NCBI GenBank assembly: GCA_034716895.1
Contig: JAYEKW010000155.1
Coordinates: 1-32,837, forward strand
DNA: 32,837 bases
Reading direction: 5' to 3'
Origin: Candidatus Neomarinimicrobiota bacterium
GTDB lineage: Bacteria > Fidelibacterota > UBA8477 > JABMPR01
Shown here: positions 4,643 to 28,419 of the stretch, one piece after another
How the letters are laid out: each line of letters begins with the position of its first letter
Position numbering within the stretch: position 1 is the stretch's first letter
The notes under the pieces: model-generated
What the model was told of the DNA's origin: nothing
Seen by the model: only the letters and a program-made list of their open reading frames with translations
The model's database searches: none
Translations under genes and position numbers: made by a program

Positions 4643-4796
4643 ACCAAACAAAATATCAACAAAAACAAGTGACGGAAACAAATTGATTTTGATTTCACAT
4701 CGACATCATCCCGATTATCTTGGCGCCCTGTTTTAGAATTAAGCTTGATGTAATAAGATGTTACAGGCTTGTAATAGATTGAATGGGAGAAGAGAA

Positions 4797-6672: not shown

Positions 6673-6683
6673 AGATTCTAGCC
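6667..6683 (+). terminator. Hairpin at the clpP stop codon
   Basis: GGCTAGA 6667-6673 pairs perfectly with TCTAGCC 6677-6683 around a 3-base loop and includes the clpP TAG. No T tract follows, so efficient intrinsic termination is uncertain. The right arm can also pair with CAGGCTAG at 6852-6859. Confidence 0.3.
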
Positions 6684-6859
6684 TGAATAATTCATAGCCA
6701 CTAAGTCACCAAGACACAAAGTTTAATAAAATATATGCTTATCAAAAATTATCACTCACAGATGCAAATAATACTGTTTAAAATGACCTTGTTCATAACT
6801 TTAATACTTTTCGTGACTTAGTGTCTTCGTGGCAATAATTCATGAATAATGCAGGCTAG
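6678..6859. repeat. 182-bp inverted-repeat element between clpP and clpX
   Basis: CTAGCCTG 6678-6685 is repeated inverted as CAGGCTAG 6852-6859. Inside, AATAATTCAT arms and a second imperfect pair (GCCACTAAGTCACCAAGACAC 6697-6717 against 6813-6833) match. The inner arms belong to a block I recall as dispersed in many environmental genomes (CCACTAAG-CACCAAGACAC type). The middle is AT-rich and non-coding. It separates clpX from clpP by 300 bp. Confidence 0.65.
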
Positions 6860-6972
6860 CCGTAGGGTAGAAAATCACTGAGACACACAACTATTCTCCA
6901 TGTTTTTGTGACTTGCTGGCAGAGCGCTTATAAAACTATCAATGCTTAAAATTTTTTGAAGGGTCGTCGAAA

Positions 6973-8964: not shown

Positions 8965-11900
8965 ATGACAAGAAGGCTACTATCATTAGTCGCTGTTATG
9001 GTGATTTTCTCTTCGATGGCTTTTGGCCAGACAAGTGGAAAGATTTCCGGAACAGTGTATGATGCGAGTCAGGATGCACCTCTAGGTTTTACCAATGTCG
9101 TAGTGAAAGGAAGTTCACTGGGAGCAGTCTCAGATGAGAACGGACGCTACGTCATCCTGGATGTTCCGCCTGGAACGTACACAATTATTTGTACTTACAT
9201 TGGCTATTCCACAATGGAAGTTCAAGAACTGGCCGTGATCAGCGGTTTAACAACTACCCAGGATTTTCAGATGCAAATTGAAGATGTGGTGGGTCAGGTT
9301 GTGACGGTTATTGCCGAAAAACCCCTGATCAACATGAATGCCACCAACACGACTCGTGTTGTTGATGCTGAACTGCTTGAGAATATGGCTGTTCGTGGTG
9401 TTCAGAATGTAGTTGCTCTGCAAACTGGTGTGGTTGCCACTGATGGTGAAATTCACATTCGTGGTTCCAGATATCAGGATGTGGCTTACTACGTTGACGG
9501 TGTTTACATGAACGATGTCTTTGACATGCGGAATACAAGCACAGTCTCCAATGTTGCCATGGAAGAAATGCAGTTGCAGACCGGTGGTTTCTCTGCTCAA
9601 TATGGTAATGCCAATGGTGGTGTTGTTTCAACCACTACCCGGACCGGTGGCGAAAAGATGAATCTGGATGTTGAATTTATTCAAGGTCTGGGAGCTTCTG
9701 GTGATGGCGCTGAAGAGAAATTGTATTCTCTGGGTTATCGACTTTATAATGTAAATGTTGGTGGCGCTCTTGGTTCCAAGATTCGCTACTTTGTGAATTA
9801 CGAGAATCGCACTACTGATGATCCCCGGGCTTCAAGTGCGGCGCACTATGCCATGGATCGCCAGGAATTGGATGTTGATTGGAGCAAATTCACATTTACT
9901 CATAATGCAACTGACGGAAAAGATTACGCTCAGGGTGAATTATGGGTTAGCGGTGAAAAAGTGGGAGATGTTGACCTGGTGTTGCACTCCATACTTGAAA
10001 CTCAGATTGAGAACATGCTGGGTGAATATTATGGTGCTGACTATGCTGTGATTGATGCAGCCCGCTTGTCAACTACAGGCACTGATCATCAATATGCCGT
10101 GAATGGCTACAGTAATTTTCAGGAACTCAATGGTGCCCGTCGCAATGTGGGTTCAACGAGAAATACGTTGACTGGTAACGTGATGTTCGATCTTAAGCCT
10201 TTTAAGATCAAAGTTGGTGGGACGATGAACGATATCAACTCACACAGTTACACCCATACTTTCTCGCTGGTCAACTCTGCCTATAACCGCCGGGTTGAAT
10301 CATTGCAAACCTCATTTTACACAAATCTGACCTGGGTGCTTTCCACCAAGTCCTATCTGAAAGCCAAATTCTCGCTGTTTAATTATGAAGAGACCATGGG
10401 TGACGAAACCCATTGGGACGATGTTGCAGCTTATGGCTCACCAGATGATGATTGGAATGCCTACATGAGTGGCGTTGGAATTAATCCATTGTCAATCGCT
10501 CAATTGGCAAATTTCCTTTCTTACGGACGTGTATGGGATGATTATTCATATCAGAACTCATCTTATACTGGTTTAACTCTGGATTATCTAAATCAGATCG
10601 GTGATCATGAAGTAACCACTGGTTTTGAGTATAGAGGAAACACGATCAAGTATTATCGGGTTGGACAGCCGGTTGAATTGGCTAAAAGCCTGGATGGTCA
10701 AACTGGTCTTACTGAAGATGAAAAATACATTATCTATCGTAATGCTTATACCGAGAACTTCGGTTTTGATCTTTACGGTGAAGATGATGAGAATGGTAAC
10801 AGCTATCAAGAGCCTGGAAAACCAACCATTTTTGGTGCCTATATTAATGACAAGTTGGAGTTGAAAGACCTGGTTGTTAACCTTGGTGTTCGTTATGAGT
10901 ACTTCAATCCGAATACTGAAGCACCTGAAGACTGGAATAATATTTCCATGACTAACGGTCGTATTGATCGTGCTGCCAGTAACTATAAAGCAGTTGATGC
11001 TGATGTTCAGGTAAATCCCCGTTTAGGGCTTTCATTTCCTGTAACAGATAAGACGAAATTCCATGCTCAGTATGGAAAGTTCTCCCAGCATCCCATTCTC
11101 AGCAGATTGTATCTGTCTGATGTAGTGTTTGCTGCGAATTTCACCCAGGGTAACTACACACAATCTCCCAACGCCAGACTTGCTACAGAGAAAACCACTC
11201 AGTATGAGATTGGTTTTTCACAGGTTGTTGGTAATAATGTGGCTCTTGATGTGACTGGTTTTTATAAAGAAGTACGTGATTACACTACGCTTAAAAACCT
11301 CTTTGGGGCAAACCTTGACGGAGCTGAATTCGTCTGGGCCCAATATCAGAACGGTGACTATGGTGTTGTTAAGGGCGTATCCTTTGGTTTGGGTATGAAC
11401 CGAACCGGTGGTCTCATGGCTAACTTGAGCTATACAGCCTCATGGGCTGAAGGTTCTGGTTCAGATCCTGAATCCAACTACTACATCGCCTGGCAGTCCG
11501 ACCAGGGTGAGGCCGGTTTCCCGACCTTGATCAATCCTCTGGACTATGATCAGCGCCATACCGGTAGTTTGATGCTGGACTATCGTTTTGACAAAATCGC
11601 TGATATGTTATCCAATACTGGTATCAACATGGTCTATACCTTTGGTTCCGGTACTGCTTACACACCTTCAGCAATTGAGTCCGCTCTTTATGGCCGTGGT
11701 GAGATCTATCCCACTGCTCCCATCAATAGCGGTATCACACCCTGGACCAGCAATCTGGATATCCGTCTGGATACCGGTGTTGAGCTTGGTTCCATCAACA
11801 TGACAGTTTACCTGTTGGTTCAGAATGCACTTGGCGCCAAGAATGTGATCGATGTATACGCCGGAACTGGTGACGCCAGTACTGACGGTTGGCTATATAC

Positions 11901-12039
11901 TGATCCTGGTAAAGCCTGGTTATCGGGTAACGAAGTAGCCGAGGATTATTATCTCGGTCAGATTCGCAATCCTACTAATTGGGATAAACCACGCTCTGTC
12001 CAACTGGGTGTGAAGATGAATCTATTCCAGGGAGAATAA
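8965..12039 (+). CDS. TonB-dependent receptor with carboxypeptidase-regulatory-like domain (cassette 1)
   Basis: This 1024-residue outer membrane receptor begins with a signal peptide cleaved near AFG-QTSG. A transthyretin-like carboxypeptidase-regulatory domain (about 24-107, GKISGTVYDASQDAPLGFTN) is typical of SusC-like and related FCB receptors. The plug (about 110-228) contains EIHIRGSRYQDVAYYVDG and GGFSAQYGNANGGVV. A long beta-barrel follows to the C-terminal GVKMNLF, with three extra residues. AAGGAGG 8951-8957 sets the start. It likely moves a substrate across the outer membrane using TonB energy, or serves as a platform for the exported partner encoded three bases downstream. The substrate cannot be told: no SusD-like lipoprotein accompanies it, which argues against an ordinary Sus glycan system. 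It is paralogous in layout to the receptor at 17269. Confidence 0.9.
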   Translation: MTRRLLSLVAVMVIFSSMAFGQTSGKISGTVYDASQDAPLGFTNVVVKGSSLGAVSDENGRYVILDVPPGTYTIICTYIGYSTMEVQELAVISGLTTTQDFQMQIEDVVGQVVTVIAEKPLINMNATNTTRVVDAELLENMAVRGVQNVVALQTGVVATDGEIHIRGSRYQDVAYYVDGVYMNDVFDMRNTSTVSNVAMEEMQLQTGGFSAQYGNANGGVVSTTTRTGGEKMNLDVEFIQGLGASGDGAEEKLYSLGYRLYNVNVGGALGSKIRYFVNYENRTTDDPRASSAAHYAMDRQELDVDWSKFTFTHNATDGKDYAQGELWVSGEKVGDVDLVLHSILETQIENMLGEYYGADYAVIDAARLSTTGTDHQYAVNGYSNFQELNGARRNVGSTRNTLTGNVMFDLKPFKIKVGGTMNDINSHSYTHTFSLVNSAYNRRVESLQTSFYTNLTWVLSTKSYLKAKFSLFNYEETMGDETHWDDVAAYGSPDDDWNAYMSGVGINPLSIAQLANFLSYGRVWDDYSYQNSSYTGLTLDYLNQIGDHEVTTGFEYRGNTIKYYRVGQPVELAKSLDGQTGLTEDEKYIIYRNAYTENFGFDLYGEDDENGNSYQEPGKPTIFGAYINDKLELKDLVVNLGVRYEYFNPNTEAPEDWNNISMTNGRIDRAASNYKAVDADVQVNPRLGLSFPVTDKTKFHAQYGKFSQHPILSRLYLSDVVFAANFTQGNYTQSPNARLATEKTTQYEIGFSQVVGNNVALDVTGFYKEVRDYTTLKNLFGANLDGAEFVWAQYQNGDYGVVKGVSFGLGMNRTGGLMANLSYTASWAEGSGSDPESNYYIAWQSDQGEAGFPTLINPLDYDQRHTGSLMLDYRFDKIADMLSNTGINMVYTFGSGTAYTPSAIESALYGRGEIYPTAPINSGITPWTSNLDIRLDTGVELGSINMTVYLLVQNALGAKNVIDVYAGTGDASTDGWLYTDPGKAWLSGNEVAEDYYLGQIRNPTNWDKPRSVQLGVKMNLFQGE

Positions 12040-12042
12040 TTA

Positions 12043-15000
12043 ATGAAAAATATAAAAAGAATATTTGCGTTCTTGCTGGTTGCTACACTAGTGGCTATGC
12101 CTTTGTTTGCTGGCATCACAGAGCAATCAGACAAGACTGCATTGGGAAAGACCTCAATTCAATCGACCGGTGCTTTTGATGGTAATCGTATTGATGATGA
12201 TCTCGAGAATAACGGTATGATTGTTTCACACCGGATCACTGGTCACTCAGGTCTTGGTTGGCCTGCTGGTAACTCAACTTACACCATCTATGCTTCAGGT
12301 ATATGGCTGGCAGGTAAGGTTACCCATACTGTGACAGGTTCTGCTGGACAGGATTCCTCTGTTACCAGTATCAGAACTGCTGTTGCTGAATACGGACCAG
12401 AATTTACCTCAGGTCCCTGGGGCTCCGATGGTACTGATCCGGCTGATGTACTTTATAAGGTGAACATCAGTGATCTTGATGATCCTGCTGGTAATCCTGA
12501 TTTTGCCGCCTGGCCGGTTGATCAGGGTGCTCCCTGGGTTGACGAAGATGGCGATGGCGTATACACACCAATGCCCGGTGGTCTTGATCATCCGGAATTC
12601 ATCGGTGATCAGGTGATCTACTATGTCATGAATGACGGCGTTACAACCGATCACAAGATCTTTGGTACAGATCCTCTAGGGGTGGAAGTTCGTACGACCA
12701 TCTGGGGTTATGACCGCGTTGATGCCTTTGGTGATATGATGTTTGTGAAAACTCAGATCTATAACAAGGGTGGAAATGATGTTAAAGACATGTATCTGGG
12801 AATCTGGTCAGATCCTGATCTGGGTAATGCCGGTGATGATTTTGTCGGTTGCGACCTTGACCTGAGTCTGGGATTCTGTTACAACGACGGTGCTGACCTT
12901 TCCTTTGGTTATGAAGCTCCCGCTGTTGGATATGATTTCTTCCAGGCTGCTTTTCCCACCAATGATCCTGCTGATCAGCAGTATTGCTTTGGTGAATTAA
13001 AAAGTGGTTATACTGGTCTGCCCATGTCCTCGTTTGTAAAATACATCAATGGTGATGATGTTTATACTGATCCCAATGATGAAATAGAGGCTTATAACTA
13101 TATGTCCGGTTTCCTGCGTGATGGATCACCATTCATCAATTCGGCAACTGGCGAAGCCACCAAGTTCGTCCACCCTGATGATCCCAGCCTGAATATTGAT
13201 GGTACGGATAATATCTGGGTCGATGGTGATGATAATGCTGCGGATGACCGCCGTTTTCTCATGAATGTGGGTCCTTTCAATTTCGATGCTGGTGATTCAG
13301 CTGAAGTTGTGTTTGGTATCCTGCATGCGCAGGGTAACAGCGCACTTGGTTCCGTTTCACTCTTGAAATTCAATGATAAGTATGCTCAGGCTGCTTATGA
13401 TGCGAATTTTGATCTTCCTCCAGCTCCTCCGGTTCCTGAATTAACGGTGAGCCGCGCCGCTGGTGAGATCATCCTGGAATGGGAAGACAATGCTGAAGAT
13501 TATTCAGTGTATGTAGCAGGAAATGACTCTTACTACGACTTTGAAGGTTATAACGTTTATCAGCACGAAACTGTAATCGGTGTGGGTGCCAAGACCTTGG
13601 TAGCCACCTATGATCTGAAAAACGGTATCACGACCATCAAAGATGAAGTCTTTGACCTTACCTATAATGATGTGCTCCTGCTGCCGGTTCAGTTTGGAAC
13701 CGACACGGGTGTCAAACGCTATATCTCCATCAAGACAGATACTCAGAATGGTGGGATTCCCCTGGTTGATGACAGAAAGTATTTCTATTCTGTATCAGCT
13801 TACGGGTATAATGGTTTCTCCACACCTGCTGTGCTTGAATCCAGTTCACCCATTCAGACAGTAAGACCACAGACTGATGTTTCAGAAGATCTTAACGCTG
13901 CTACTGGTGTTGCTGCTTTTGATGTGACTCATAGCGGTACCGCAGATGCTTCAGTTGCGGTTGCTATCTCAAATCCGTATTCACTTACGGGAGACGATTA
14001 TGAAGTCTATTTTGATCAACAACATTATTATGTTGATCTTAATGGAGTATGGCAAACCACAAATTATGCTGATTCAGTTGGTAGAGGTCTGGCTAAGCCA
14101 TCCGATTTAACTGGAACAGTAGTATCTGGAATCGCTTACACAAACCCAACTGCAGGTACGAGAGATCTTAAATTCATTTTGGATATTTCTGCATCTCCCG
14201 ATTATGACTGGTGTGATGGTTTAACCCTGACTTTTCCAGCTGGCATTACCATAAATTATGGTGAAGTAGCGGTAGGAAACGGTGATGGACATGGTTATGA
14301 CGCTGTTATTGATGCTAATAACAACACCGTAACCTGGGGTTCTATGGATACCACAACTGCAGGTTCTTTTGCAGGAGGTGAAGTCTTTACCGTAAATGTA
14401 AATACGCCAACCTTACCACTTGATGTTGATTTCCTGGCTTTTGATGATGGCTGGGGAGTGAGTTATGGTGCACCGTATGATACTTATGGAGTCCACCACG
14501 GTGCCGGTACTTGTACCATCACTGAAGAAGGATATGCCTTTACCACCATCAACCATTGGAATCTGAAAAACTCCGCTGGGACAGTGCTGTTGGAAGACAT
14601 GACTGTGCTCGATGGGTTTGAGTCAGATTATATTAAAAATGGTGTTTACCATACTGGACTTGGGAATATCGGTGGAACGACCATTCCCATTGTTGATGGA
14701 TTCCAGGTCAATGTTGTAGCAAACTACGCTGCTCCTCAGATGGAAAATTCCATCACACATGTTGGTGCTGGATCCTATGATTGGGATTCTTACCTCCATT
14801 ATGGTTGGGCTGCCTCATCCAGAGCGATTGATGCTTATGGATTGGGTACTTCCAGTGTGGATATGCTCCAGATGGATTATGAGATCCGTTGGACAGGTGA
14901 ATATGGTGATTCTGTTGATGTCCATGGTGATGGCTCGGTATGGTACCACAAGATCAAGGATGGAACTGGTTCCATCGCAACCTGGGTAGGTGCCCGCGGC

Positions 15001-15690
15001 TATGCTGCTGCTGACCACCCTGCGAATACTGGTGGCACTGACTTCTTCCAGATCAGAATTCCCTTTGAAGTTTGGAATAAAGATACTGATGAACAGGTCT
15101 CTTGTATCATCTACGATCGTAAAGGTGACGTAACTGCAGCTCATTTCTATGCTTTCAATCCAGCTGACCGAATGTATTTCTATCTCTGGAATGAAGCCTA
15201 TGATGCATCAGTTACTTTTGCCGATGCTGTTAATGGTGACAATCTCACCTGGAATTTAATCTCCTGGGCGGCTGACTGGGTTAAGGGTGATGTAACCACC
15301 ATCCTGTATGATAATCCAATTCAGCTAGGTGTGGATAATTTCACATTCACGACCACTGCACCTTCTGCTCTGGCAGAGGATCTGGATCTGATCAAAGTCT
15401 GGCCAAACCCATACTTTGGTTACAATCCTGAAGAGAGAACGCCTCTCAATAACTATATTCATTTCATTAATCTGCCCAACGAAGCAACGATCAACATCTA
15501 TTCGTTAGCCGGGCAATTGGTGAGAACTCTTGAACATAGTGGTGGTCAGGAAGAGATCTGGAATGCCCAGAACAGCTTTAACGTTCTGGTTGCATCAGGT
15601 GTGTACATCGCCGTTGTCTCTACGGATGAAGGTGATAAGGTACTTAAACTCGCAGTCGTGATGCCACAACAACGACTAGATGTCTACTAG
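12043..15690 (+). CDS. Large exported protein with FN3-like region and T9SS-like C-terminal domain (cassette 1 cargo)
   Basis: The 1215-residue protein has a signal peptide (about 1-23, LFA-GITEQ). Residues 24-450 resemble the N-terminal half of the 792-residue protein at 20522, including GIWLAG and 'intermittent interaction' style stretches such as DMMFVKTQIYNKGG. DEDGDGVYTP (167-176) is calcium-loop-like. A fibronectin-III-like segment begins near 457 (PPAPPVPEL, then EIILEWEDN). Residues about 620-1105 form a unique beta-rich part absent from the paralogue. The C-terminal domain (1117-1206) starts KVWPNPYFG and includes IYSLAGQLV and ASGVYIAVV, resembling T9SS type A sorting domains. Nine residues (MPQQRLDVY) extend past it. 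AGGGAG at 12029-12034 and the 3-base gap suggest translational coupling to the receptor. Export through T9SS to the cell surface is inferred; its activity is unknown. Confidence 0.8.
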   Translation: MKNIKRIFAFLLVATLVAMPLFAGITEQSDKTALGKTSIQSTGAFDGNRIDDDLENNGMIVSHRITGHSGLGWPAGNSTYTIYASGIWLAGKVTHTVTGSAGQDSSVTSIRTAVAEYGPEFTSGPWGSDGTDPADVLYKVNISDLDDPAGNPDFAAWPVDQGAPWVDEDGDGVYTPMPGGLDHPEFIGDQVIYYVMNDGVTTDHKIFGTDPLGVEVRTTIWGYDRVDAFGDMMFVKTQIYNKGGNDVKDMYLGIWSDPDLGNAGDDFVGCDLDLSLGFCYNDGADLSFGYEAPAVGYDFFQAAFPTNDPADQQYCFGELKSGYTGLPMSSFVKYINGDDVYTDPNDEIEAYNYMSGFLRDGSPFINSATGEATKFVHPDDPSLNIDGTDNIWVDGDDNAADDRRFLMNVGPFNFDAGDSAEVVFGILHAQGNSALGSVSLLKFNDKYAQAAYDANFDLPPAPPVPELTVSRAAGEIILEWEDNAEDYSVYVAGNDSYYDFEGYNVYQHETVIGVGAKTLVATYDLKNGITTIKDEVFDLTYNDVLLLPVQFGTDTGVKRYISIKTDTQNGGIPLVDDRKYFYSVSAYGYNGFSTPAVLESSSPIQTVRPQTDVSEDLNAATGVAAFDVTHSGTADASVAVAISNPYSLTGDDYEVYFDQQHYYVDLNGVWQTTNYADSVGRGLAKPSDLTGTVVSGIAYTNPTAGTRDLKFILDISASPDYDWCDGLTLTFPAGITINYGEVAVGNGDGHGYDAVIDANNNTVTWGSMDTTTAGSFAGGEVFTVNVNTPTLPLDVDFLAFDDGWGVSYGAPYDTYGVHHGAGTCTITEEGYAFTTINHWNLKNSAGTVLLEDMTVLDGFESDYIKNGVYHTGLGNIGGTTIPIVDGFQVNVVANYAAPQMENSITHVGAGSYDWDSYLHYGWAASSRAIDAYGLGTSSVDMLQMDYEIRWTGEYGDSVDVHGDGSVWYHKIKDGTGSIATWVGARGYAAADHPANTGGTDFFQIRIPFEVWNKDTDEQVSCIIYDRKGDVTAAHFYAFNPADRMYFYLWNEAYDASVTFADAVNGDNLTWNLISWAADWVKGDVTTILYDNPIQLGVDNFTFTTTAPSALAEDLDLIKVWPNPYFGYNPEERTPLNNYIHFINLPNEATINIYSLAGQLVRTLEHSGGQEEIWNAQNSFNVLVASGVYIAVVSTDEGDKVLKLAVVMPQQRLDVY

Positions 15691-15704
15691 AAGGAGGAAG
15701 AGCG

Positions 15705-16757
15705 ATGTATAAAAATAAAATTGCATTTTTCTTAATAGCACTTCTCGTTGTAACAACTGCCTTTGCCGGGACTGGTAAATCCGTGGGTACCTATGGTGCT
15801 CTGGAACTTACCATTCCCACCGGTGCCAAGGCTGTTGCTCTCAGCGAGTCAAATATGGCCGTTATGGCCGGTGCAGACGCCATGTTTTATAACCCGGCTG
15901 GCATTGCCAAGCTGAAAACTAACATGGAAGCACAGCTTTCACATTTGAACTATTTGGCAGACATTGGTGTGTCTTATGCTTCATTTGTAACCAAGTTTGG
16001 TAGTAATGCTTTTGGTATCTCTGCCAAGACATTGACCTTTGGTGATATTCTGCATACCACGGCAGAAGATCCCAATGGCTATCAGGAATCATACTTTTCG
16101 CCTAAATACATCACGGTCTCTGCTTCATTGGCCAAGATGTTTTTCGACCGTGTTGCTTTTGGTGCCACGTTCAAGGTGATCAGTGAAACCTTTATCCAAA
16201 CATCAGCCACTGGTGGTGCTTTTGATATGGGTGTTCAGTATAAGGCTGCTAACATGCCTTTAAGTGTTGGCGTTACCTTGAAGAACATCGGTGTTAAAAT
16301 GGCATTTTCCGGTAATGATCTGGAGCAAAAGCTTGATCCTGCGGGATCTGAAGAAGGTACGGTTGCAGAAAATTTTGCAGTCGTTGCTCAGGCTTTTGAA
16401 GTTCCAGCCTCACTGGATATTGGACTCAGCTATACAGTTGCCAACATGGTTAATCTCCATGGTGTATTCAAAAATAACTCCTTTGGGTTCAATGAATATC
16501 GCCTTGGTGCTGATTATGCCATGAAAACCGATGCCTTTTGTCTCTGGGCCGGCGGTGGTACCAGCATGTTTTCCGTTGATGACGATACTGATGGATGGGA
16601 TGAAGCCCTTACCGACAATACTTATGGTATTTCCTTCGGTGGTGGTATCAAGATTCCCGTATCAACTTTTGTCTTCGGTGTTGAATATGGTTATAAATCA
16701 ACTACGATTAATGGACTTAACGATCTAAGCGTATTGGCGTTTACTTTCGGTTTCTAA
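15705..16757 (+). CDS. PorV/PorQ-like outer membrane barrel protein (cassette 1)
   Basis: The 350-residue protein has a signal peptide (about 1-21, AFA-GTGK). It carries the PorV/PorQ family N-terminal signature at 40-70 (GAKAVALSESNMAVMAGADA, then FYNPAGIAKL), related to FadL-like barrels. The remainder alternates short beta strands and ends with a terminal Phe (LAFTFGF), as outer membrane barrels do. In studied T9SS, PorV carries substrates from the translocon to the attachment complex. Here a private copy follows a receptor and a cargo gene, so a dedicated shuttle or anchoring role for that cargo is a reasonable inference. AAGGAGG at 15691-15697 sets the start, 14 bases after the cargo stop. 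An intrinsic terminator follows. A generic UPF0164/PorV relative without T9SS function is the alternative. Confidence 0.82.
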   Translation: MYKNKIAFFLIALLVVTTAFAGTGKSVGTYGALELTIPTGAKAVALSESNMAVMAGADAMFYNPAGIAKLKTNMEAQLSHLNYLADIGVSYASFVTKFGSNAFGISAKTLTFGDILHTTAEDPNGYQESYFSPKYITVSASLAKMFFDRVAFGATFKVISETFIQTSATGGAFDMGVQYKAANMPLSVGVTLKNIGVKMAFSGNDLEQKLDPAGSEEGTVAENFAVVAQAFEVPASLDIGLSYTVANMVNLHGVFKNNSFGFNEYRLGADYAMKTDAFCLWAGGGTSMFSVDDDTDGWDEALTDNTYGISFGGGIKIPVSTFVFGVEYGYKSTTINGLNDLSVLAFTFGF

Positions 16758-16781
16758 TCCAAGCTAGTTGATCTAGAATAT

Positions 16782-16818
16782 AAAGAGGGTCATTCTGCAG
16801 AGAGTGACCCTCTTTTAT
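16782..16818 (+). terminator. Intrinsic terminator of the first receptor operon
   Basis: AAAGAGGGTCA 16782-16792 pairs with TGACCCTCTTT 16805-16815 around a 12-base loop that contains TCTGCAGA. The stem runs into TTTTAT on the plus strand and is preceded by an A-rich side, so it could work in both directions. It lies 25 bp after the PorV-like stop and closes the operon. Confidence 0.85.
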
Positions 16819-17268
16819 ATTTCATGGATAAGACATCCCCGTGAAGACGCGATTCATCGCGGCTTTCTCCATCTTTGCGATAACTAAGACTGCTTGCCAC
16901 GGCGTAGTCTGGAAGACATAGACTGGTGGCAATCTCCATCACGAAGACGAATACCAGGTAAATAGAGATGAAAACCTTGATCGGATAGGCGTTTGTTAAT
17001 CGCACATTACTTATTAAAACAATTTTTTAGATCATTTGACATTGAGCAGGTGCTCTTACCTCTGTAATAGAAATATGACATGCTTCAGAATTGACCGACA
17101 GACCCGTTGAATCTGTTCAGCTTACCATGGATCAACCAGAGCACGAATAGAGAAAACCCTTTATAAATAAGGCTTCACAAGGTGTAATAAAAAACTTGCC
17201 CTCGGAATTAATTTTAACTAAACTTCACGTCGATGCGTTATGAATGAACGTTAGTGGAGGTTTCATAA
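16819..17268. other. Intergenic region with hairpin repeats and the leader of the second receptor operon
   Basis: Two hairpins are visible: CGCGAT/ATCGCG (16848-16861) and GCCAC..AGTCT/AGACT.GTGGC (16896-16930). Both look like dispersed intergenic repeats. The rest is AT-rich and non-coding. TTGCCC with TAAACT 17 bp later, starting near 17196, is a weak sigma-70-like pair about 55 bp before the receptor start. The 71-codon minus-strand frame across 16790-17005 runs through the terminator and hairpins and is not credible. Confidence 0.5.
16896..16930. repeat. Interrupted hairpin repeat
   Basis: GCCAC 16896-16900 pairs with GTGGC 16926-16930, and AGTCT 16906-16910 pairs with AGACT 16920-16924 inside. 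It is non-coding and resembles a dispersed intergenic repeat. Confidence 0.5.
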
Positions 17269-20200
17269 ATGAGAAGGCATTTTTGCTTGCAGTGCATGCT
17301 GGTTCTGCTATTGGCCGCGCAATTGGTAATGGCGGGAACCACAGGGAAAATCATGGGAAAGGTCACCGATGCTTCAACCGGTGAACCATTGATCGGTGTC
17401 AATGTTTTTATCAAAGGATCGAACCTCGGTGCAGCTACTGATGGTGAAGGTCAGTACTACATTATCAATATACCAGTTGGCGTTTACTCTGTGCGAGCCC
17501 AGTACATTGGCTATACCCTGATCGAGATTCAGGAAGTACAGGTCAATGCAGACCTGACAACTCCCCTTGATATTGAGTTGGCCTCTGAAATTATTGAAAG
17601 CTCGGAAGCGGTTATTGTTGTGGCCAAGCGGGCTCTGGTTCAAAAAGATTTAACTGCCAGTCGCCGAACCCTTGCTGCAGAAGACCTGGAAGACATGCCG
17701 GTTGCCAATCTTGAAGGTGCCGTAGCCCTGTCTGCCGGAGCCGTCAATGATGGCGGTTTGCACCTGCGTGGTGGCCGTGCCAGTGAAGTTGTTTACCTCT
17801 TTGATGGGATCGCTCTGAATGATCCTCTAACTGGAAATCCTAATGATACTGACGTACCGGTCATGGCTGTTGATGAAGCCAATATCCTGTCTGGTGGTTT
17901 TGGGGCAGAATATGGTAATGCCCAGTCTGGTGTGATCAATGTTGTCTCTGCCGAAGGTGGTCGCAACATATCCGGTAAGGTGAGGTATACAACTTCCGCT
18001 ATTGTCGCTGATGCTTTTACTGGTGAAGATCCCCACGAACGTCAGAAGCTGGAGTTCAGTGGAAATCTACCCCTTCTGTCAGCTAAGTTGAATTTATTTG
18101 TCTCAGGTGAAATTGACGAGAACTCCGGTCGTTTCACCAATCAGTACGGTGACCTGAATAACTATACGGCCAAACTCACCTACCGGATCACTGATGCCAT
18201 TAAAGTTAATCTCAGCACATTATATACCCGATCCATTAGTCAGTGGGGCTATTCCCATGCCTATAGCCATACAATTTTAGAAGATCGGATGCGCTCCTAT
18301 ATGCCCCGTTATCTGGAGTCCTATGACGGATCTATCGAGGGTGAATTTGCCAATGGAACACTCCTGGATGAAGAAATACCGGACTACTATCTGAATTGGC
18401 TACAGTCGGATGGTCTCCAGACTGAAGATATCAACGGTAACGGTATTCTGGACGCCGGAGAAGATGTCAATGACAATGGTAAGATCGATACCGAGGGTCT
18501 ACTTGATTATTGGTATGGTAATGGCCAGCTGGATACGGAGGATATCAATTTTAACGGTGTTCTGGATGATGGTGAAGATCTGAATGGCAACGGTATCCTG
18601 GATTCCGAGGACGTTGACCGTAATCGGAGTCTAACCAGCTACAATATGTCTGATCGTTTACCCTGGACAGACCGAACCAGTAATCTGGTTATGGGTGGAT
18701 TCACCCACTCACTTTCCCCAAAAACATACTATGAGATCAAAATAGCTCGTTACGAGACCTCCCTTAATAACAATATTATCGAGCGGGTCAATGAGGACCG
18801 GAATTATAACGGTGTTCTGGACGATGGCGAAGATCTGAATGGCAATGGCATTCTGGATGCCTATGATGCTGACAAGGCAGTCTGGGGTTTTGATGACAGC
18901 CAGGATATGTTTCACGATTCCAATAACAATGATTATGTAGATGAATCAGAACGGGACTGGGATGGCGATGGCGATATCGACGATACCGACAGGGCGAATT
19001 GGATCGACTGGGTTGATTTTCCAGTTGATGAAGGGTTCAAACATTATCGCGATTTCTATGGAGTAGGACCTCATAATCCTTATACCTATAACCGGGATCA
19101 CTGGCATGCCGATAATAAAGTGACCACAACTGTAAAAGCCGATCTGGTTTCCCAATACAATAACAACAATAAGGTCAGCACTGGTTTGGAATACAAAGGC
19201 TATGACCTTTTTAATCATGATCCACCAGACCGTTACGGTTATGCTGAGAGTTATACTGTTACACCCTGGGACTTTTCAGTCTATGCCAATGACAAGATGG
19301 AATTTCCCGGTCTGATCATGAATATTGGTCTGCGTTGGGAATGGTTTGATCCAAATCAGGATTACCCTGGTGATGTGACTGACCCCACCTGGACTTCTGG
19401 AGATTATGCTGATTGGAATGGTGATGGAACTCCGGAGTATTATGATGAAGCTCTGTCAAGTACATACAAACATAAGCTTAGAGATATGAAAGATCCGCAA
19501 CCGGGTAAGAGTAAAATGAGATTTGCGCCCCGTCTGGGTGTCTCCCATCCCATCACTGACCATGACATGCTCTACTTCAATTATGGTCGCTATTATCAGA
19601 GACCACAGCTGAATTACCTGTTTAGAAACATCACCTATAATATGGGTGGTGGGTTTCCCATTGTAGGTGATCCTAATCTGGATCCTGAGTTAACTACATC
19701 TTATGAAGTGGGTGTCCGTCATGAATTCAACAATTCAATGATGGTCGAGGTCAAAGGATTTTACAAAGACATTTACGGTTTGACCGATACCAAAGCGATC
19801 TACTGGACGGTTTCAGATTGGTACACGACCTACTTCAATGCTGATTATGGATCTGTGCGTGGCTTTGAGTTCTCACTGGTCAAGATGCCTCCCGGTTTGA
19901 TTTCCGGTGAGTTGAATTACACTTATTCCATTGCCAAGGGAAAAGCCTCTGCTGCCGGTCAGGGATATACAACAGAATGGTCAGGAAACATCGTACCCAC
20001 CTTCGAATCCTTCCTGGACTGGGATCAGACTCATACCCTGGCTAGCAATATCAATTTTAGATATCAAGGCTTCTTGGCCAGCATGGTTGTGACTGCTGGT
20101 AGTGGTACTCGTTATACTCTTCCCGGTCAGGGTCGTCTGATCGTAGAGAATGAGGGTGTTCTGCCGCCTACTTCCAGGACTGACCTGCGGTTGTCCTATC

Positions 20201-20493
20201 GCTATCATTTAGGCAAAACCAATGCACAGGTCTTCATGATGATCACCAACGTGTTTGATGCCCAAAATTTCAACGGTGTTGCTGATGTTGAGTGGTACCA
20301 TACTTATCGTATGCTGGCTGAAGCCCACGATGCCGGCGATCTTACCGATGCTGAGTATCTCGCCCAGACTGATAGCGATAATGATGGTGAAACGGATTAC
20401 AATAAATCACATCCTGAAATGGGATCTGATCTAAACCCGGCGATCTATGCTGATTCACGCCGGTTTCAGATTGGGTTCTCTCTTGGTTTCTAA
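17269..20493 (+). CDS. TonB-dependent receptor with calcium-loop-like insertions (cassette 2)
   Basis: The 1074-residue receptor has a signal peptide (about 1-22, VMA-GTTG), a carboxypeptidase-regulatory-like domain (about 25-107, GKIMGKVTDASTGEPLIGVN), a plug (about 112-230 with GLHLRGGRASEVVYLFDG and GGFGAEYGNAQSGVI), and a barrel ending in IGFSLGF with the canonical terminal Phe. Two insertions in the barrel, 387-455 and 508-574, hold about eight 12-residue loops of the form DxNxNGxLDxxE, like EF-hand or dockerin calcium sites. They probably lie in extracellular loops. Further acidic repeats occur at WNGDG and near the C-terminus (DSDNDGETD). GTGGAGG 17254-17260 sets the start. It heads a six-gene same-strand run with gaps of 13-36 bases. 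Calcium binding and surface exposure are inferred; the transported substrate is unknown. Confidence 0.9.
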   Translation: MRRHFCLQCMLVLLLAAQLVMAGTTGKIMGKVTDASTGEPLIGVNVFIKGSNLGAATDGEGQYYIINIPVGVYSVRAQYIGYTLIEIQEVQVNADLTTPLDIELASEIIESSEAVIVVAKRALVQKDLTASRRTLAAEDLEDMPVANLEGAVALSAGAVNDGGLHLRGGRASEVVYLFDGIALNDPLTGNPNDTDVPVMAVDEANILSGGFGAEYGNAQSGVINVVSAEGGRNISGKVRYTTSAIVADAFTGEDPHERQKLEFSGNLPLLSAKLNLFVSGEIDENSGRFTNQYGDLNNYTAKLTYRITDAIKVNLSTLYTRSISQWGYSHAYSHTILEDRMRSYMPRYLESYDGSIEGEFANGTLLDEEIPDYYLNWLQSDGLQTEDINGNGILDAGEDVNDNGKIDTEGLLDYWYGNGQLDTEDINFNGVLDDGEDLNGNGILDSEDVDRNRSLTSYNMSDRLPWTDRTSNLVMGGFTHSLSPKTYYEIKIARYETSLNNNIIERVNEDRNYNGVLDDGEDLNGNGILDAYDADKAVWGFDDSQDMFHDSNNNDYVDESERDWDGDGDIDDTDRANWIDWVDFPVDEGFKHYRDFYGVGPHNPYTYNRDHWHADNKVTTTVKADLVSQYNNNNKVSTGLEYKGYDLFNHDPPDRYGYAESYTVTPWDFSVYANDKMEFPGLIMNIGLRWEWFDPNQDYPGDVTDPTWTSGDYADWNGDGTPEYYDEALSSTYKHKLRDMKDPQPGKSKMRFAPRLGVSHPITDHDMLYFNYGRYYQRPQLNYLFRNITYNMGGGFPIVGDPNLDPELTTSYEVGVRHEFNNSMMVEVKGFYKDIYGLTDTKAIYWTVSDWYTTYFNADYGSVRGFEFSLVKMPPGLISGELNYTYSIAKGKASAAGQGYTTEWSGNIVPTFESFLDWDQTHTLASNINFRYQGFLASMVVTAGSGTRYTLPGQGRLIVENEGVLPPTSRTDLRLSYRYHLGKTNAQVFMMITNVFDAQNFNGVADVEWYHTYRMLAEAHDAGDLTDAEYLAQTDSDNDGETDYNKSHPEMGSDLNPAIYADSRRFQIGFSLGF

Positions 20494-20521
20494 ATATTTA
20501 GGAAAGTTAGGTCTATAATTT

Positions 20522-22900
20522 ATGAAAGTGGCGTATTTAAATCTAGTCAGTACCCTTGTTGTTAGTCTTCTATTGCTATCTGCTCCTGAAGTGTTGCAGG
20601 CCCGCAATAAGTTGCATGACGAACAGGGTGGCAGCCAATTGGCCAAACCATCAGCTCGTCCTGAGAAAGCCTTTTTTATTCATACTACGGGTAACCTCTG
20701 GACTTCTGTTACCAACTATGGTAGTGTCGGTGACCCCAATTTTGAATCTGCAGGAAGACCGTCCATGCAATGGCCGGGTGGCTCAAATAATAACTATTTG
20801 TACGATTCTGGAGTTTGGGTAGGAGCAATGCTGGGTGGAGATCCAGCGGTAACCTCCTATTTCTATAATCCTGATCAGGAGTGGCTGCCCACTACAGGAA
20901 TCCCTGGTGAGCTTGGGACTACTGTCGGTGGAACCAAGGCAAAATCACTGGAAGACAGTTATATGGTCTTTGATGATCTGGAGGCGCACTCTGAAAGTAG
21001 CCACCTGCCCCTGGGTGTCCGTGTTGCTCAACGGGGTATGACCTGGAGTCTCCCTGATTATGATGATGCCATTGCCTTTGAGTATGAAGTGTTCAACACC
21101 GGTTTGAATGGTGACCTGACAAACGTTCATGTGGGCTTCTGGTATGATATTGATGCAGCGTCAGTCGACAATTCCATGTTGGCAATCGATGATCTGGTCG
21201 ATTACGATGGATGGGATGAAGGTGACACTGATACAGATATCCTCGATGCCGTTGATCCTTATGATCTAAACGGTGATGGATGGACTGGCTACGATGAATA
21301 TGGTGTTCCCTACTATCGGGACCAGGGACACAATCCCAATTATAACCCTGATTTAACCGAGGCAGACGGTTTTTATGATGAGTGGGGCATTGTATTTGAC
21401 GCTGCTGCACCTGTGATCAACTGGCAAAGTGATGTTGAAGATTTAGGTCGCTTTGCTGGAGAACCGGCCATTGTTGATGGTGATACGCTTCACGGGTATA
21501 TTTTCCCCCGAAGCCTGTCATATATCTATGATGGTGATGATCCAGTGTCATCCAGCAATGATTATGGTGAGCGTGAAATGAGTCCAAACGTGGATGGTTT
21601 TCTGGGAGGCATGTTACTGGCAACCGGAGCACCGTCGCACTTGATAGAGGGTCGCGACTACACGGCCGCCGTGTCACATCAGTGGTGGAACTGGGAATCA
21701 GATCCAAAAACTGATGATGATCGCTGGGATTACATGATGGGACAACATGTGGCGAGTCAATCCAAGAAGTTTCTTGATAATCCCCTGGAACTGGGATTCC
21801 CGCAGTTTGACTATCGTTATCTGCTGACAACCGGTCCCTTTGATCTACCTGAGGGTAGCTCAATTAAACTGGTCTTTGTTAGTGTTATTGGCCGCGGTCT
21901 GGAAGGACTGCGTCAGAATGCTGACAACCTTGTGGAAGCCTATTACTCAGGTAGTGAAACCAGTGATCCATATAATCCAAGTAACTGGGATGAGGATAAA
22001 CACTGGGTGCTTCCCATCCCGCCAGCTGTACCGAATCTTTCCTATTCACCCATTAATAATGGCATCGAGTTGGCTTGGGATCGTACAGCAGAGACCGGTA
22101 TTGACCCCAATCTGGGACAAACTGATTTTGAAGGTTATCAGCTCTATCGTTCTACATACAATCCTCAGGGTTGGGAGATGATCTACTCCTACGACAATGT
22201 AAATGGTGCCGTTTACATCGTTAACCAACAGGGGGACACTCTGAACCCCAAACTGGATGGTATGGATACTCTCTTTGTGGATGAAACTGGCTGGGAAGAA
22301 TCCGCTGGTAGCTGGATTCTGGTTGACCTGCCGAATATCGCTCAAACCTATCAGGATCTTGGTGGTATGACTCCCTGGGGTGTATCGATTGAACCTCCCA
22401 TGAATAGCATTCCCTATTTTTATGCGTTGAGTGCTTATGATCCGATCAAAACCGCTGCCGAAGCTGGACAAGATCTGCCCAGAGCATATTCTCCCTTAAG
22501 CAATTACAAAAAGACTTTGTCTGGAGCGCCTGTGGCAGTTTTTCCTTCACGTCTCTACGAAGTAGGGGAGAGCGTGCCCAGTTTGGATGGCGTAAAGGTT
22601 GTGCCTAATCCTTACCGTGGTACGGCACTCTGGGAAGCCCAATACGAAGATCGGCTCAAATTTGCCGGATTACCACCAGTGGCCAAGATCACCATCTTTA
22701 CCCTGGCCGGTGATATGGTGATTGAGATTGAGCACACCAATGGTACGGACTATGAGTTCTGGGATCTGGTCAGTCGTAACAATCAATCTGCTGTCAGTGG
22801 ACTGTACCTGTATGTCGTTGAAGCCCCGGACGTTGATGTCGTTGGGCAAAGTTCAACGAAGATGGTGAAAAAAGTTGATAAATTCGCACTGTTTCGTTAA
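20522..22900 (+). CDS. Exported protein with FN3-like region and T9SS-like C-terminal domain (cassette 2 cargo)
   Basis: The 792-residue protein has a signal peptide (about 1-27, LQA-RNKL). It is a shorter relative of the 1215-residue product at 12043: an N-terminal part with MQWPGGSNNNYLYDSGVWVG and FEYEVFNTG, a fibronectin-III-like part from about 500 (PAVPNLSYSP, IELAWDR, GYQLYRS), and a C-terminal domain from about 689 (VKVVPNPYRG, ITIFTLAGDMV, SGLYLYVV). A calcium-like loop DLNGDGWTGYDE is at 248-259. The C-terminal domain matches the PNPY type of the first cargo and differs from the PNPFNP type of the downstream genes. Its ribosome binding site is weak (TTAGGT at 20507-20512) and it starts 29 bases after the receptor, so coupling to it is likely. 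The function is unknown; surface export is inferred. Confidence 0.78.
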   Translation: MKVAYLNLVSTLVVSLLLLSAPEVLQARNKLHDEQGGSQLAKPSARPEKAFFIHTTGNLWTSVTNYGSVGDPNFESAGRPSMQWPGGSNNNYLYDSGVWVGAMLGGDPAVTSYFYNPDQEWLPTTGIPGELGTTVGGTKAKSLEDSYMVFDDLEAHSESSHLPLGVRVAQRGMTWSLPDYDDAIAFEYEVFNTGLNGDLTNVHVGFWYDIDAASVDNSMLAIDDLVDYDGWDEGDTDTDILDAVDPYDLNGDGWTGYDEYGVPYYRDQGHNPNYNPDLTEADGFYDEWGIVFDAAAPVINWQSDVEDLGRFAGEPAIVDGDTLHGYIFPRSLSYIYDGDDPVSSSNDYGEREMSPNVDGFLGGMLLATGAPSHLIEGRDYTAAVSHQWWNWESDPKTDDDRWDYMMGQHVASQSKKFLDNPLELGFPQFDYRYLLTTGPFDLPEGSSIKLVFVSVIGRGLEGLRQNADNLVEAYYSGSETSDPYNPSNWDEDKHWVLPIPPAVPNLSYSPINNGIELAWDRTAETGIDPNLGQTDFEGYQLYRSTYNPQGWEMIYSYDNVNGAVYIVNQQGDTLNPKLDGMDTLFVDETGWEESAGSWILVDLPNIAQTYQDLGGMTPWGVSIEPPMNSIPYFYALSAYDPIKTAAEAGQDLPRAYSPLSNYKKTLSGAPVAVFPSRLYEVGESVPSLDGVKVVPNPYRGTALWEAQYEDRLKFAGLPPVAKITIFTLAGDMVIEIEHTNGTDYEFWDLVSRNNQSAVSGLYLYVVEAPDVDVVGQSSTKMVKKVDKFALFR

Positions 22901-22920
22901 AGAAAGCAGCGAGAGAGACT

Positions 22921-23919
22921 ATGAATATGAAATTTAAAGCAATTGTCTTAATTACCTTTCTGCTCATCGGACGTGGTGCTGTTGGTCAGGAAATATTTGA
23001 AAAAATTGGAACTGCTGGAGCTCACTTCCTGGATATATCTCTGGATGCCAGAGTCCGGGGTATGGGAGACGCTTATGCTGCTCTCACCATGCCGGATGCT
23101 TCCGCCAGTCATTACAATCCGGCCACATTGGTCTTTGTGCCTTCCTGGAGTACTTCATTCGGAATGGTGAACTATTTTGCCGGTATATCGGTAAATGGTG
23201 GTTCAGCCGCTTATCGGCTGGATGGCATTGGCACCGTGGGACTCTCCTTCAGGGGCTTGAATTCAGGTACCATGGAAGAGACCACGGTTCTGCAACAGGA
23301 CGGTACAGGTAACACCTTTGAATGGTCAGATGTAGCAATAGGTTTGAACTTTGCCCGTTCTTTTACGGATCGATTTGCCTTTGGTATGAATCTGAAATAC
23401 ATCAAAGAATCAATTTCCGCTTATGATTTGAATGCCTCGGCCTGGGCGGTGGATCTGGGCACATATTATCGTACCGGTTTTCGCTCTTTGCGTCTGGGTA
23501 TGACCATCCGGAATTTCGGTCCGGAACTGGATTTCAATACCAGTTTCACCGATTTTAATAATGGTGAGATCGTACCGGAGCCAAGTGAGTATCACCCCTT
23601 CCACATGCCGCTGACCTTCCAGGTTGGTGTAGCTATGGATTTTCTTGAAGATACGAACAATCATTTTTTAACAGTTGCGATTGATGCAGTGCACCCCAAC
23701 GAAGCCGCTGAACGCTTGAATATCGGAGTTGACTATCGCTTTATGAATACCATTCACCTGCGTGGTGGTGGCTGGCTCGCTCCTGAGAATACTTCTTATG
23801 CTGCTCTGTTTGGAGGGGTTGGGATAGAAGTGGCTTCAATTGGTCGGTTTGACTACGCCATTTCCTCCTATGATCTCTTAGGGGCTGTACATCAGTTTTC
23901 ATTGACAATATCACGATAA
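22921..23919 (+). CDS. PorV/PorQ-like outer membrane barrel protein (cassette 2)
   Basis: The 332-residue protein has a signal peptide (about 1-22, AVG-QEIF). The PorV/PorQ signature at 41-70 includes LDARVRGMGDAYAAL and SASHYNPATL, as in PorV proteins where this segment precedes the barrel. It lies 20 bases after the cargo gene, mirroring the first cassette. A purine-rich GAGAGAGA precedes the start. ATG 22921 and the ATG at residue 3 (22927) are equally possible. By analogy with PorV it would shuttle or anchor T9SS substrates at the outer membrane. Sequence divergence from the other PorV-like protein in this window suggests old duplication or specialisation rather than a recent copy. Confidence 0.83.
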   Translation: MNMKFKAIVLITFLLIGRGAVGQEIFEKIGTAGAHFLDISLDARVRGMGDAYAALTMPDASASHYNPATLVFVPSWSTSFGMVNYFAGISVNGGSAAYRLDGIGTVGLSFRGLNSGTMEETTVLQQDGTGNTFEWSDVAIGLNFARSFTDRFAFGMNLKYIKESISAYDLNASAWAVDLGTYYRTGFRSLRLGMTIRNFGPELDFNTSFTDFNNGEIVPEPSEYHPFHMPLTFQVGVAMDFLEDTNNHFLTVAIDAVHPNEAAERLNIGVDYRFMNTIHLRGGGWLAPENTSYAALFGGVGIEVASIGRFDYAISSYDLLGAVHQFSLTISR

Positions 23920-23933
23920 GGATAGGTCTAGCT

Positions 23934-26900
23934 ATGATTTTAAAGCATAAAACAATTGATATAGCTCTATCGTTTATCCTGTCCAGTGCAGTGATCTTCG
24001 GTTCAGCTCCTGAACTTCAATTTGCCGGTTATCAGCCGGATGACAATCAATTGGTTCTGGTTTTTGATCAGGATGTGAAGGTTGATAATGTCTTTCTTGG
24101 CCTGATCTCATTTGATGATGATAATTCTGGACCCAACACCGATCTCTTTTTGCAAGGTGGTCAGGTAGTAAACCCTGCCGGGTTGGTCCTCAATGATACC
24201 ATTATTATTCATCTTATCTATCAGGACATTATAGACAGTTTTACCGGCAGCTTTTTCGGTGAGAATGCCTACCTGTTTGAACTGTGGGGAACTGATCTGG
24301 ATCAGATTAAAACCCTGGAAGGTATGGCTACCGATAATTTGACACTCCAACTGGATGCAGGTGCTTTCATTTCAGAAGATAATGAGATGTGTTTGGCCCA
24401 AGCTGTGGCGTGTACCGTTGCTCCGGATAATTCCCGGCCGGTCATTGAATCAGCTGTTTACGATGCCAACATCAACACCCTTACGCTGACTTTCGATAGT
24501 TATGTTCAATATGATCGATTGGCTGAAGACCGCTCTATCGCCGGCGGACCGGGAAATGGATTACTCCAAAACGCCATCCCTGGTAATGATGACGGAGAAG
24601 ATCGCAACGATAATGGCGCCCTGGACTTTGAAACCAATATTCAACCTTTTGAGATCGGTCTGGTTGGTTCTGCCGGCAGCATGACGCTGGAAAATATTGG
24701 GAGCCTGGTTCAGACAGAGGATTCTGATACACTTGATATCGTTCTTACCAGTAATGATGCAAAACGTCTGGAAGCCAGTGTTGGATTGGATGTTTTAAAT
24801 CTGGCAGTCAACGAATGGGCTTTTGTAGACACAAATTATAACCCGAACCTGGCCAGCAATGCCAGTGTGTCCGTTATTTCGGATTCAGTTGATTTTGCAG
24901 CTGATTCAGCCGTTTATGATCTGTCCAAGAACATATTGAGTATTTATTTCTCCAATATGTTTGCTGCAGGTCGTACCATTGGTCTCACGAATCCCAGCCC
25001 GGTATACACCAAGTTCAATCTGAACTCGGCTGCCGGCAGCTATTCTTTGAATGGCGTTGAGGGCAACCCCTCAAGCTTATCTGGGTTCAACAACACCGCT
25101 TTTAAATTCAAATTGCCCATAGGTGATCAAGCCGGAGTGGAGGGACTGTTGGACGGTTCAGCCTTGACCCTGTCTGTCAATTCTTTCGCGCTTTATGACA
25201 ATTATAGTAACGGTAACAGTGAATTTTCCGGTGTACCTGTAAGAGTAACAGAGAACAGCTCAGCCAATGAGCAACCACCTATTCTGGTGACTTCGAACTA
25301 TGATGTTGAACAGCACACCCTGACCCTGACCTGGGATCTGAATCTTGGTGTTGGTTTTTATCAGGGAGATGCTCTCACCGGGTTAGATAATGCCGATGAA
25401 CAGGAACTTAGCGGACTTTATCTGTATGATAGTGTTGCAGATTCTGCCATTGTTTTAGGCACTGGATCCGTATACTACTCCGGAAGCAAGAAAAATACTT
25501 ACATCCAGCTTTCTGAGGCTGATGCTATCACACTTGAGACCTATGCAAATCTGGACGACCTGAGTACTTACATCGATCGAGATGTCTTTAATGCCTTCTT
25601 GTTTCTCAATGGTAATGCTGCTGTTGGAGCAGTGGATTCGATCCGATTTGAGGTTGTGGCAGATACAACAGCTCCTGTGATCGTGGGCTCGCGATTGAAT
25701 GTCTTTACCAAGACCATCGAAATTGAGACCAATGAACCGGTGAGTTACGCTAGTATCACAGTGGCTGATTTTGCTTTAGCCGGTTTGAATCTGAATGGAA
25801 CCATTTTAAATGAAGCCGAACTCAATTATGGCAGGCAGATCGAGCTGGAGCTTGATGAAGCCTCCTTTAATGCTTTTGAAGCCCTGGTCGATAGCGTTCG
25901 CATTGCTCCTGATCTAACCGTAAGTGCTGGAGCATTTACCAATATCTCAAGTTTGACCTCAGTGACAGATACACTCAGTTCGGCAGTTGGCAGAACCTTC
26001 TATTTGCGAAGTTTCGAAGCTTTCGCACCCGGTCCGAAACTAAGGTTTGGAGCGCTGAAACTGATTGGTGAATCCTGTGATATCTATGTGGATGATGAAA
26101 TGTGGGCTGACGGCAAAGTCAGTCAAGCCAATCTCATTGAAATTCAAACTGCTTTTGAGACCTCCACTCCTGTAGATAGTACCCGGGGTATCCAGGCCAT
26201 TGTTGATGCCTACTATGGTGGTATCCTTGATACTGATGGTAATGATAAAGTAGTGTTCTTTCTGGCAGATCTGCTGGATGAATATGATCTGGGGCGAAAT
26301 GATACCCAGGATAGCTTTTTTGAGAGTGGATTTGTGACTCTCCAGGATACTTCAGATGGACAATATTCCAATCATAGTGATCTGATCTATCTGGATGTTG
26401 ACCCACAGCTCGTGGGTGTAGCTCCCTATTCTGAATGGGATGAGAGCATGTTCAATGCCCTGACCTATCAATACACCCTGTTGTCAGCCATGACCAACAA
26501 ACCAGAGCAGGAAAGATGGATTAATTATGGTGTTGCCTTGAAGATGCAGGAGCAAACTGTAGGCAATATCAAGTTTTTTGGTGATGGTGTTAACACTAAG
26601 GCCACTGCCAATAATGAGTTGACCTATATCGCTCAGAGTCTTCTGAAGTCCCGGGGTGACCTCTTCAATGTTTATAATTATTTCACTTATCTGACTGAAA
26701 AGTTTCCCGGTGCAACTGATTCACTGGCGATCATCAAAACGATCGCAGCATCAGATGTAATCGGTATCGCTGCTGTCGATGCTGCCCTGGAAGAGTTGGG
26801 GTATAGCATAAGTGCAGCCCAATCCTACCAAAACTATGCAGTGGCCTGTTTTCTAGATCTGACGCAATACAGTGACAGTGATAGCGCGAGGTACGGCGGA

Positions 26901-28406: not shown

Positions 28407-28419
28407 GGGTGGTGAAGAG

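Follow-up and report, generated by a model that had tools for sequence, protein, structure and literature searches.

Background

Several described bacterial systems hold a large protein at the cell surface next to an outer-membrane barrel, and they provide the context for two three-gene cassettes found in a 32,837-nucleotide stretch of DNA (the window) from a Candidatus Neomarinimicrobiota bacterium (contig JAYEKW010000155.1, assembly GCA_034716895.1). Each cassette encodes a TonB-dependent receptor, an exported cargo protein ending in a sorting domain of the type IX secretion system (T9SS) kind, and a barrel of the PorV/PorQ family. In the T9SS attachment complex of Porphyromonas gingivalis, PorQ anchors PorZ (PMC5562754), the C-terminal domain of PorZ is uncleaved (PMC8545088), and in both the PorQ-PorZ and PorV-PorU pairs a barrel of this same family holds a surface protein with a T9SS C-terminal domain (PMC5562754, PMC8545088). 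PorZ and PorU serve cargo attachment, whereas a genome may hold as many as about 15 of the cassette pairs, and each of these comes with a TonB-dependent receptor and has a different cargo body.

Type B cargos bind PorP-like barrels for anchorage (PMC9143113), and the pairing has cognate specificity (PMC12618676). This arrangement is similar to the cassettes in its order of cargo gene and own barrel gene, in its presumed cognate pairing and in the shuttle or anchor role of the barrel, but its barrels are PorP/SprF, its domains are TIGR04131 and no receptor gene has been described for it (PMC12618676, PMC9143113), in contrast to the PorV/PorQ-family barrels and type A-related domain of the cassettes. 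SusC-SusD and BtuB-BtuG also place a TonB-dependent receptor gene beside that of one large surface partner, and the cassette receptor is SusC-like in its N-terminal CarboxypepD_reg extension. However, SusD and BtuG are lipoproteins, while the partner in the cassettes is a cargo of T9SS type, encoded next to a barrel, in a genome that gave no PF07980 match. In BamG-BamH of the Bacteroidota beta-barrel assembly machinery (BAM) complex, a barrel of the FadL family keeps a large extracellular partner in place, but BamH is a lipoprotein complexed with BamA, with no TonB receptor or T9SS domain (PMC12611786, PMC12578637). BamG matched one cassette barrel weakly, and this pair was rejected as the nearest system since the barrel matches did not favour it. 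A limited search of the open-access literature returned no earlier description of the receptor-cargo-barrel triplet.

The gene unit, its conservation and its class of export domain are well supported by the results presented here. We favour, with modest confidence, the reading that the triplet is a TonB receptor with a T9SS-delivered, barrel-anchored lid, a plan resembling that of SusCD but assembled from different parts.

Results

Layout of the two cassettes

The host genome is a 3.45-Mb metagenome-assembled genome (MAG) of 258 contigs, approximately 95% complete, in which the window is contig C155. The initial annotation described the same three-gene order twice, with matching domain layouts, and this description holds: the six open reading frames are exact, lie on one strand and are separated by gaps of 3 and 14 bases in cassette 1 and of 28 and 20 bases in cassette 2.

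8965..12039, + strand: TBDR1, TonB-dependent receptor of cassette 1 (1024 residues), with signal peptide, CarboxypepD_reg, TonB box, plug and barrel
12043..15690, + strand: cargo 1 of cassette 1 (1215 residues), with signal peptide, beta-sandwich body and FN3-like part
about 15370-15657, + strand: C-terminal VPNPY-type sorting domain of cargo 1 (A2 profile, described below, 70.6 bits)
15705..16757, + strand: barrel 1 of cassette 1 (350 residues), PorV/PorQ family (NF033709, 111 bits), nearer PorQ than PorV
17269..20493, + strand: TBDR2, TonB-dependent receptor of cassette 2 (1074 residues), with barrel (3e-26), plug, CarboxypepD_reg and TonB box
20522..22900, + strand: cargo 2 of cassette 2 (792 residues), with signal peptide, beta-supersandwich-like body and FN3-like part
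22565-22897, + strand: VPNPY-type C-terminal domain of cargo 2 (A2 profile)
22921..23919, + strand: barrel 2 of cassette 2 (332 residues), PorV/PorQ family (NF033709, 190 bits)

The two receptors are related (phmmer about 1e-78), and both carry a TonB box (EAVIVVAKR at residue 113 of TBDR2) that is conserved across cassette receptors. Plug scored above its cut-off in TBDR1 and TBDR2, and the barrel model did so in TBDR2 only; by plug, TonB box and barrel, the cassette receptors classify as TonB-dependent transporters. The SusC/RagA model TIGR04056 (cut-off 368 bits) was not reached, with 61 bits for TBDR2 and no match for TBDR1. The window contains no SusD, as the initial annotation had stated, and a profile search of the approximately 95% complete genome for SusD_RagB (PF07980), the one SusD family searched genome-wide, was also empty while a Bacteroides control matched.

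A distinct class of export domain beside the barrels

The C-terminal export domains share the signature 'VPNPY…GKFxIxR'. Both cargos had been credited with a sorting-like domain; cargo 1 scores above the cut-off of the type A model TIGR04183 (29.2 against 23 bits), whereas cargo 2 falls below it (16.7 bits) and carries a divergent version. By profile comparison, the cargo domains are best classed as a divergent type A subclass. A profile trained solely on the C-termini of cargo-2 orthologues (A2) gave exactly 15 strong matches in the genome, at 70-147 bits, followed by a next match of 36 bits. A barrel gene lies within 1.5 kb downstream of 12 of these 15 domains, compared with one of the 103 ordinary type A domains in the same genome (Fisher 7e-13, a value which overstates independence because the paralogues counted share ancestry). 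Of the remaining three, one is cut by a contig end where the barrel would be expected (C60) and two share a cluster with a barrel (C41 and C7).

The domains also resemble that of PorZ. Cargo 1 matched the PorZ model NF052228 at 33.5 bits, short of the 260-bit cut-off and over the C-terminal domain only, outside the two beta-propellers which also define membership; the same model matched 17/17 cargo-2 export domains. PorZ was the top match in the PDB for both predicted cargo models (5m11 for cargo 2, whose model has a predicted local distance difference test score of 87.5), with low overall TM-scores and a cargo-1 model of moderate quality. The cargo bodies are more diverse. Cargos 1 and 2 are homologous only in profile-to-profile comparison (HHalign probability 100, E=5e-59, 421 columns), with no phmmer match, and a one-round hidden Markov model of the cargo body reached just three other cargos in the genome. 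In its predicted model the cargo 2 body resembles the N-terminal sandwiches of GH94-type (sugar) phosphorylases, a likeness that weakly hints at carbohydrate; a sequence search of the PDB with the cargo-2 profile gave no match.

The barrels resemble PorQ more than PorV

Both barrels exceed the 90-bit cut-off of the PorV/PorQ family model NF033709 (111.1 bits for barrel 1 and 190.2 bits for barrel 2), and barrel 2 matches the PorV structure of Flavobacterium johnsoniae (6h3i, E=2.9e-7). Scores for PorQ were higher than for PorV in barrel 1 (84.6 vs 46.4 bits) and barrel 2 (101 vs 78 bits), as in 11 of the 12 cassette barrels scored, and housekeeping PorVs show the reverse. Because these values fall short of both equivalog cut-offs (250 bits for PorV, NF033710; 220 bits for PorQ, NF033711), the cassette barrels are not assigned as PorV or PorQ proper. 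The barrels gave no match to PorP/SprF, nor the two cargos to the type B model TIGR04131. A further barrel, on C241, has no receptor, scores 203 bits for PorV and 47 for PorQ, and is likely the housekeeping PorV. Its neighbour is an M6-like metalloprotease that is inactivated and carries a sorting domain (L282:3719-6559; NF052323, 314 bits, below cut-off).

The initial annotation proposed that every receptor comes with a T9SS-type cargo and a PorV-like shuttle of its own. The pairing agrees with our results. Since the barrels resemble PorQ, which anchors PorZ, more than PorV, which is a shuttle, 'anchor' is the better word.

Paralogous units and linked trees

The host genome has 18 places encoding PorV-family proteins (one gene reported as two pieces was counted once) and about 15 units of the receptor-cargo-barrel type. 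In addition to the two in the window, the same order occurs on C166, C39, C17, C64, C209, C245 and C186. The C157 unit includes one extra gene, and contig ends truncate the units on C133 and C80. On C226 a barrel precedes a receptor that runs off the contig, and C60 ends after a receptor and cargo. The SprA translocon of the T9SS is present, with a match above cut-off on C217.

The trees of receptor, export domain and barrel are linked, the co-evolution that the initial annotation had put forward as a check. Across 56 triplets, distance matrices correlated at r=0.73 for receptor and barrel, 0.72 for receptor and domain and 0.63 for barrel and domain, while shuffling partners within genomes gave at most 0.28 and none of 1000 shuffles reached the observed values. 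Most single genomes show the same correlation.

Conservation across FCB lineages

The triplet is conserved well beyond the host genome in the Fibrobacterota-Chlorobiota-Bacteroidota (FCB) group, the survey through which the cassette idea was to be judged. Relatives of cargo 2 were found in genomes labelled Marinimicrobia, KSB1, Calditrichota, Gemmatimonadota, Electryonea, WOR-3, Hydrothermus, Fermentibacteria and Aegiribacteria, and the cassette 2 operon is common to at least nine FCB lineages. Among 78 relatives in named genomes, 70 have a barrel directly downstream and 52 a receptor directly upstream, and several of those lacking an adjoining receptor or barrel are cut by contig ends. Genes for ExbB, two ExbD and TonB lie between receptor and cargo in Fermentibacteria and Aegiribacteria and just 5' of the receptor in Hydrothermus and WOR-3 (L136:7112-9850 and L140:4648-6768; identified by Pfam at these two loci and by gene size and sequence at the others). 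Their presence in the operon ties the receptor to TonB energy.

The A2 profile gave 83 matches in ten other genomes from several FCB phyla; with the three weakest set aside, 68 of the remaining 80 domains have a barrel no more than 2 kb downstream. Exact triplets account for 47 of the 66 cargos examined in eight of these genomes, and most of the others have one extra gene; because the regions were picked around export domains, mostly those near a barrel, the receptor count is the independent part of this survey.

Retention in small genomes

Three genomes of 0.9-1.0 Mb (G045, G027 and G051; 96-98% complete) keep SprA and exactly two PorV-family genes. In G045, one barrel is PorV-like and the other belongs to a cassette 1 with adjoining receptor and cargo; in G027, a receptor and cargo 1 extend to the contig end. 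A 357-kb sample of G045 taking in the cassette yielded no sorting-domain protein other than the cassette cargo and no receptor other than the cassette receptor. SprA exceeds 2000 residues in all three genomes, though few sorting-domain proteins were seen in them.

Discussion

A proposed outer-membrane machine

We suggest that each cassette would form one outer-membrane machine, with the receptor as its TonB-dependent transporter. The cargo, a large beta-sandwich surface protein, would be exported by Sec and then pass through SprA, the T9SS translocon, by means of its C-terminal domain. The adjoining PorQ-like, 14-stranded barrel would take the export domain as it leaves SprA and retain it uncleaved, so that the cargo would be fixed in the membrane beside its own receptor, as PorQ does with PorZ and PorP with type B cargo. 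There it would serve as the extracellular capture or lid protein of the receptor, and uptake would be powered by TonB-ExbBD. The plan would be that of SusC-SusD or BtuB-BtuG, except that the surface lipoprotein would be replaced by a partner delivered through the T9SS and anchored by a barrel. An uncleaved, barrel-anchored partner is proposed because the barrels are PorQ-like and the export domains PorZ-like; we infer cognate recognition, absence of cleavage, a physical complex with the receptor and uptake.

More tentatively, on a reading we judge slightly less likely than not, these may be ancestral TonB uptake machines found throughout the FCB group, whose extracellular lid is delivered by the T9SS using a dedicated class of export domain and is retained by a cognate PorQ-like barrel. 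The T9SS would then be an assembly route for transporters, and in the streamlined 1-Mb Marinimicrobia one cassette may be the main reason for keeping it. If so, the T9SS would also build nutrient transporters in many uncultured FCB phyla, beyond exporting enzymes and adhesins, and cognate barrel-cargo pairing would extend from type B/PorP to the PorV/PorQ family. This would provide a reason for 1-Mb genomes to retain a very large secretion channel, assign a testable function to many proteins now labelled 'T9SS sorting domain' or 'PorV/PorQ family', and offer a new setting for testing how surface partners arrive at TonB receptors.

A number of observations weigh against the anchored-lid proposal. 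The gene order differs on C41 and C7, and genome G012 has one barrel beside an array of about seven cargo-1-like proteins (L296:12783-19899, L297:2-13733), located after a clpX-receptor-cargo-barrel unit, so the pairing is not strictly 1:1; in G012 one barrel may serve many lids. The PorZ and PorQ matches are far under the equivalog cut-offs, some cargo domains of the host genome fit PorZ no better than they fit the ordinary type A or PorU models, and the C157 cassette barrel scores nearer PorV than PorQ. Congruent trees can arise from physical linkage alone and are no proof of contact, and to this must be added the shared ancestry behind the Fisher test and the single-family scope of the SusD search in an incomplete genome.

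Alternative explanations

The alternative that survives best, although we consider it unlikely, is that the cassettes provide a surface coat or adhesion, with a structural or adhesive cargo, the barrel as its anchor, and a receptor acting in signalling or in TonB-driven movement or release and not in nutrient uptake. Large beta-sandwich chains would suit such a role, as would the array of cargos in G012; type B cargo/PorP pairs of F. johnsoniae serve adhesins (PMC12618676). Release from the T9SS requires energy (PMC10994853), and a search of the genome for GldM gave no match, with the control genomes equally silent. Against a coat stand the near-constant presence of a receptor with its Ton box, the operon's own ExbBD-TonB in some phyla, and the general lack of a receptor neighbour among ordinary cargos.

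Somewhat less likely still is an operon of convenience, in which ordinary T9SS cargos are served by the housekeeping PorV while the adjoining barrel and receptor act separately. The C241 barrel shows that such a PorV exists, linkage alone would account for the congruent trees, and about 100 ordinary type A cargos do without a barrel neighbour. This explanation would not, however, predict an export-domain class confined to barrel-linked cargos or a linkage kept over many phyla, and one 1-Mb genome retains a cassette barrel in addition to its PorV-like one.

Uptake of hydrophobic substrates, in which the barrel would be a channel of the FadL type next to the receptor and the cargo a binding protein, appears improbable. 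PorV, BamG and FadL are homologous barrels (PMC12578637) and barrel 2 weakly matches Toluene_X, but that match is under its cut-off while the PorV/PorQ family is above, and the barrel tracks the export domain.

Origin and genomic context of the cassettes

The remaining features of the window are as follows.

4758..8205, + strand: trigger factor, ClpP and ClpX, kept 5' of cassette 1, cassette 2 or both in Marinimicrobia, KSB1 and Calditrichota
16782..16815, + strand: terminator-like hairpin between the cassettes, 15 pairs with a weak T tail (consensus match only)
23934..28406, + strand: cargo 3 of the cassette 2 operon (1490 residues), with an ordinary NYPNPFNP type A sorting domain; position conserved
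28420..29601, + strand: TPR lipoprotein of the cassette 2 operon (393 residues), with weak TPR matches and the lipobox LMFGC; position conserved
29638..32820, + strand: cargo 4 of the cassette 2 operon (1060 residues), with an ordinary type A sorting domain; position conserved

The initial annotation treated the cassettes as a tandem duplication, which does not hold for a recent event. Identity between different cassettes is 19-46% for the receptors and barrels, and the two window cassettes are no nearer to one another than to others. In the barrel tree, barrel 1 falls among barrels from the cassette 1 units of other families (100/100) and barrel 2 among those from the cassette 2 units of other lineages, although a tree joining both clades was not rejected (approximately unbiased test, p=0.25). 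The tig-clpP-clpX locus occurs with cassette 2 alone, cassette 1 alone or both. On this sequence evidence, the window cassettes are ancient paralogues, each with orthologues in other families and, for cassette 2, in other phyla; an ancient duplication may have given rise to both. A recent tandem duplication within this lineage would fit the identical order and domains and the profile-level homology of the cargos, but is very improbable given that each half has closer kin in other families (cassette 2 also in other phyla) and that either is found alone at the clpX locus. Late insertion of cassette 1 in part of the genus was considered and rejected, as other genomes, including one from another family, have cassette 1 at this clpX locus, and a 1-Mb genome has it alone.

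Cassette 2 runs unbroken into cargo 3, the TPR lipoprotein and cargo 4 (23934-32820), which often follow this triplet elsewhere; as they continue the second triplet, cassette 2 is a six-gene unit. The TPR-type lipoprotein keeps its place in the operon (window 28420-29601; L074:17626-18552; L140:16473-17393), although L132 has a swapped order. Another TPR lipoprotein is SprE/PorW, which belongs to the T9SS translocon. The Fermentibacteria operon has a GWxTD-domain protein (L136:13270-14412) 3' of the barrel, at the position expected for cargo 3. Five contigs with cassette 2 (L089, L096, L098, L111 and L159) are labelled Woesearchaeota, Actinomycetota, Rhodospirillaceae or ANME-2 archaeon and are probably mis-binned or mislabelled MAG contigs.

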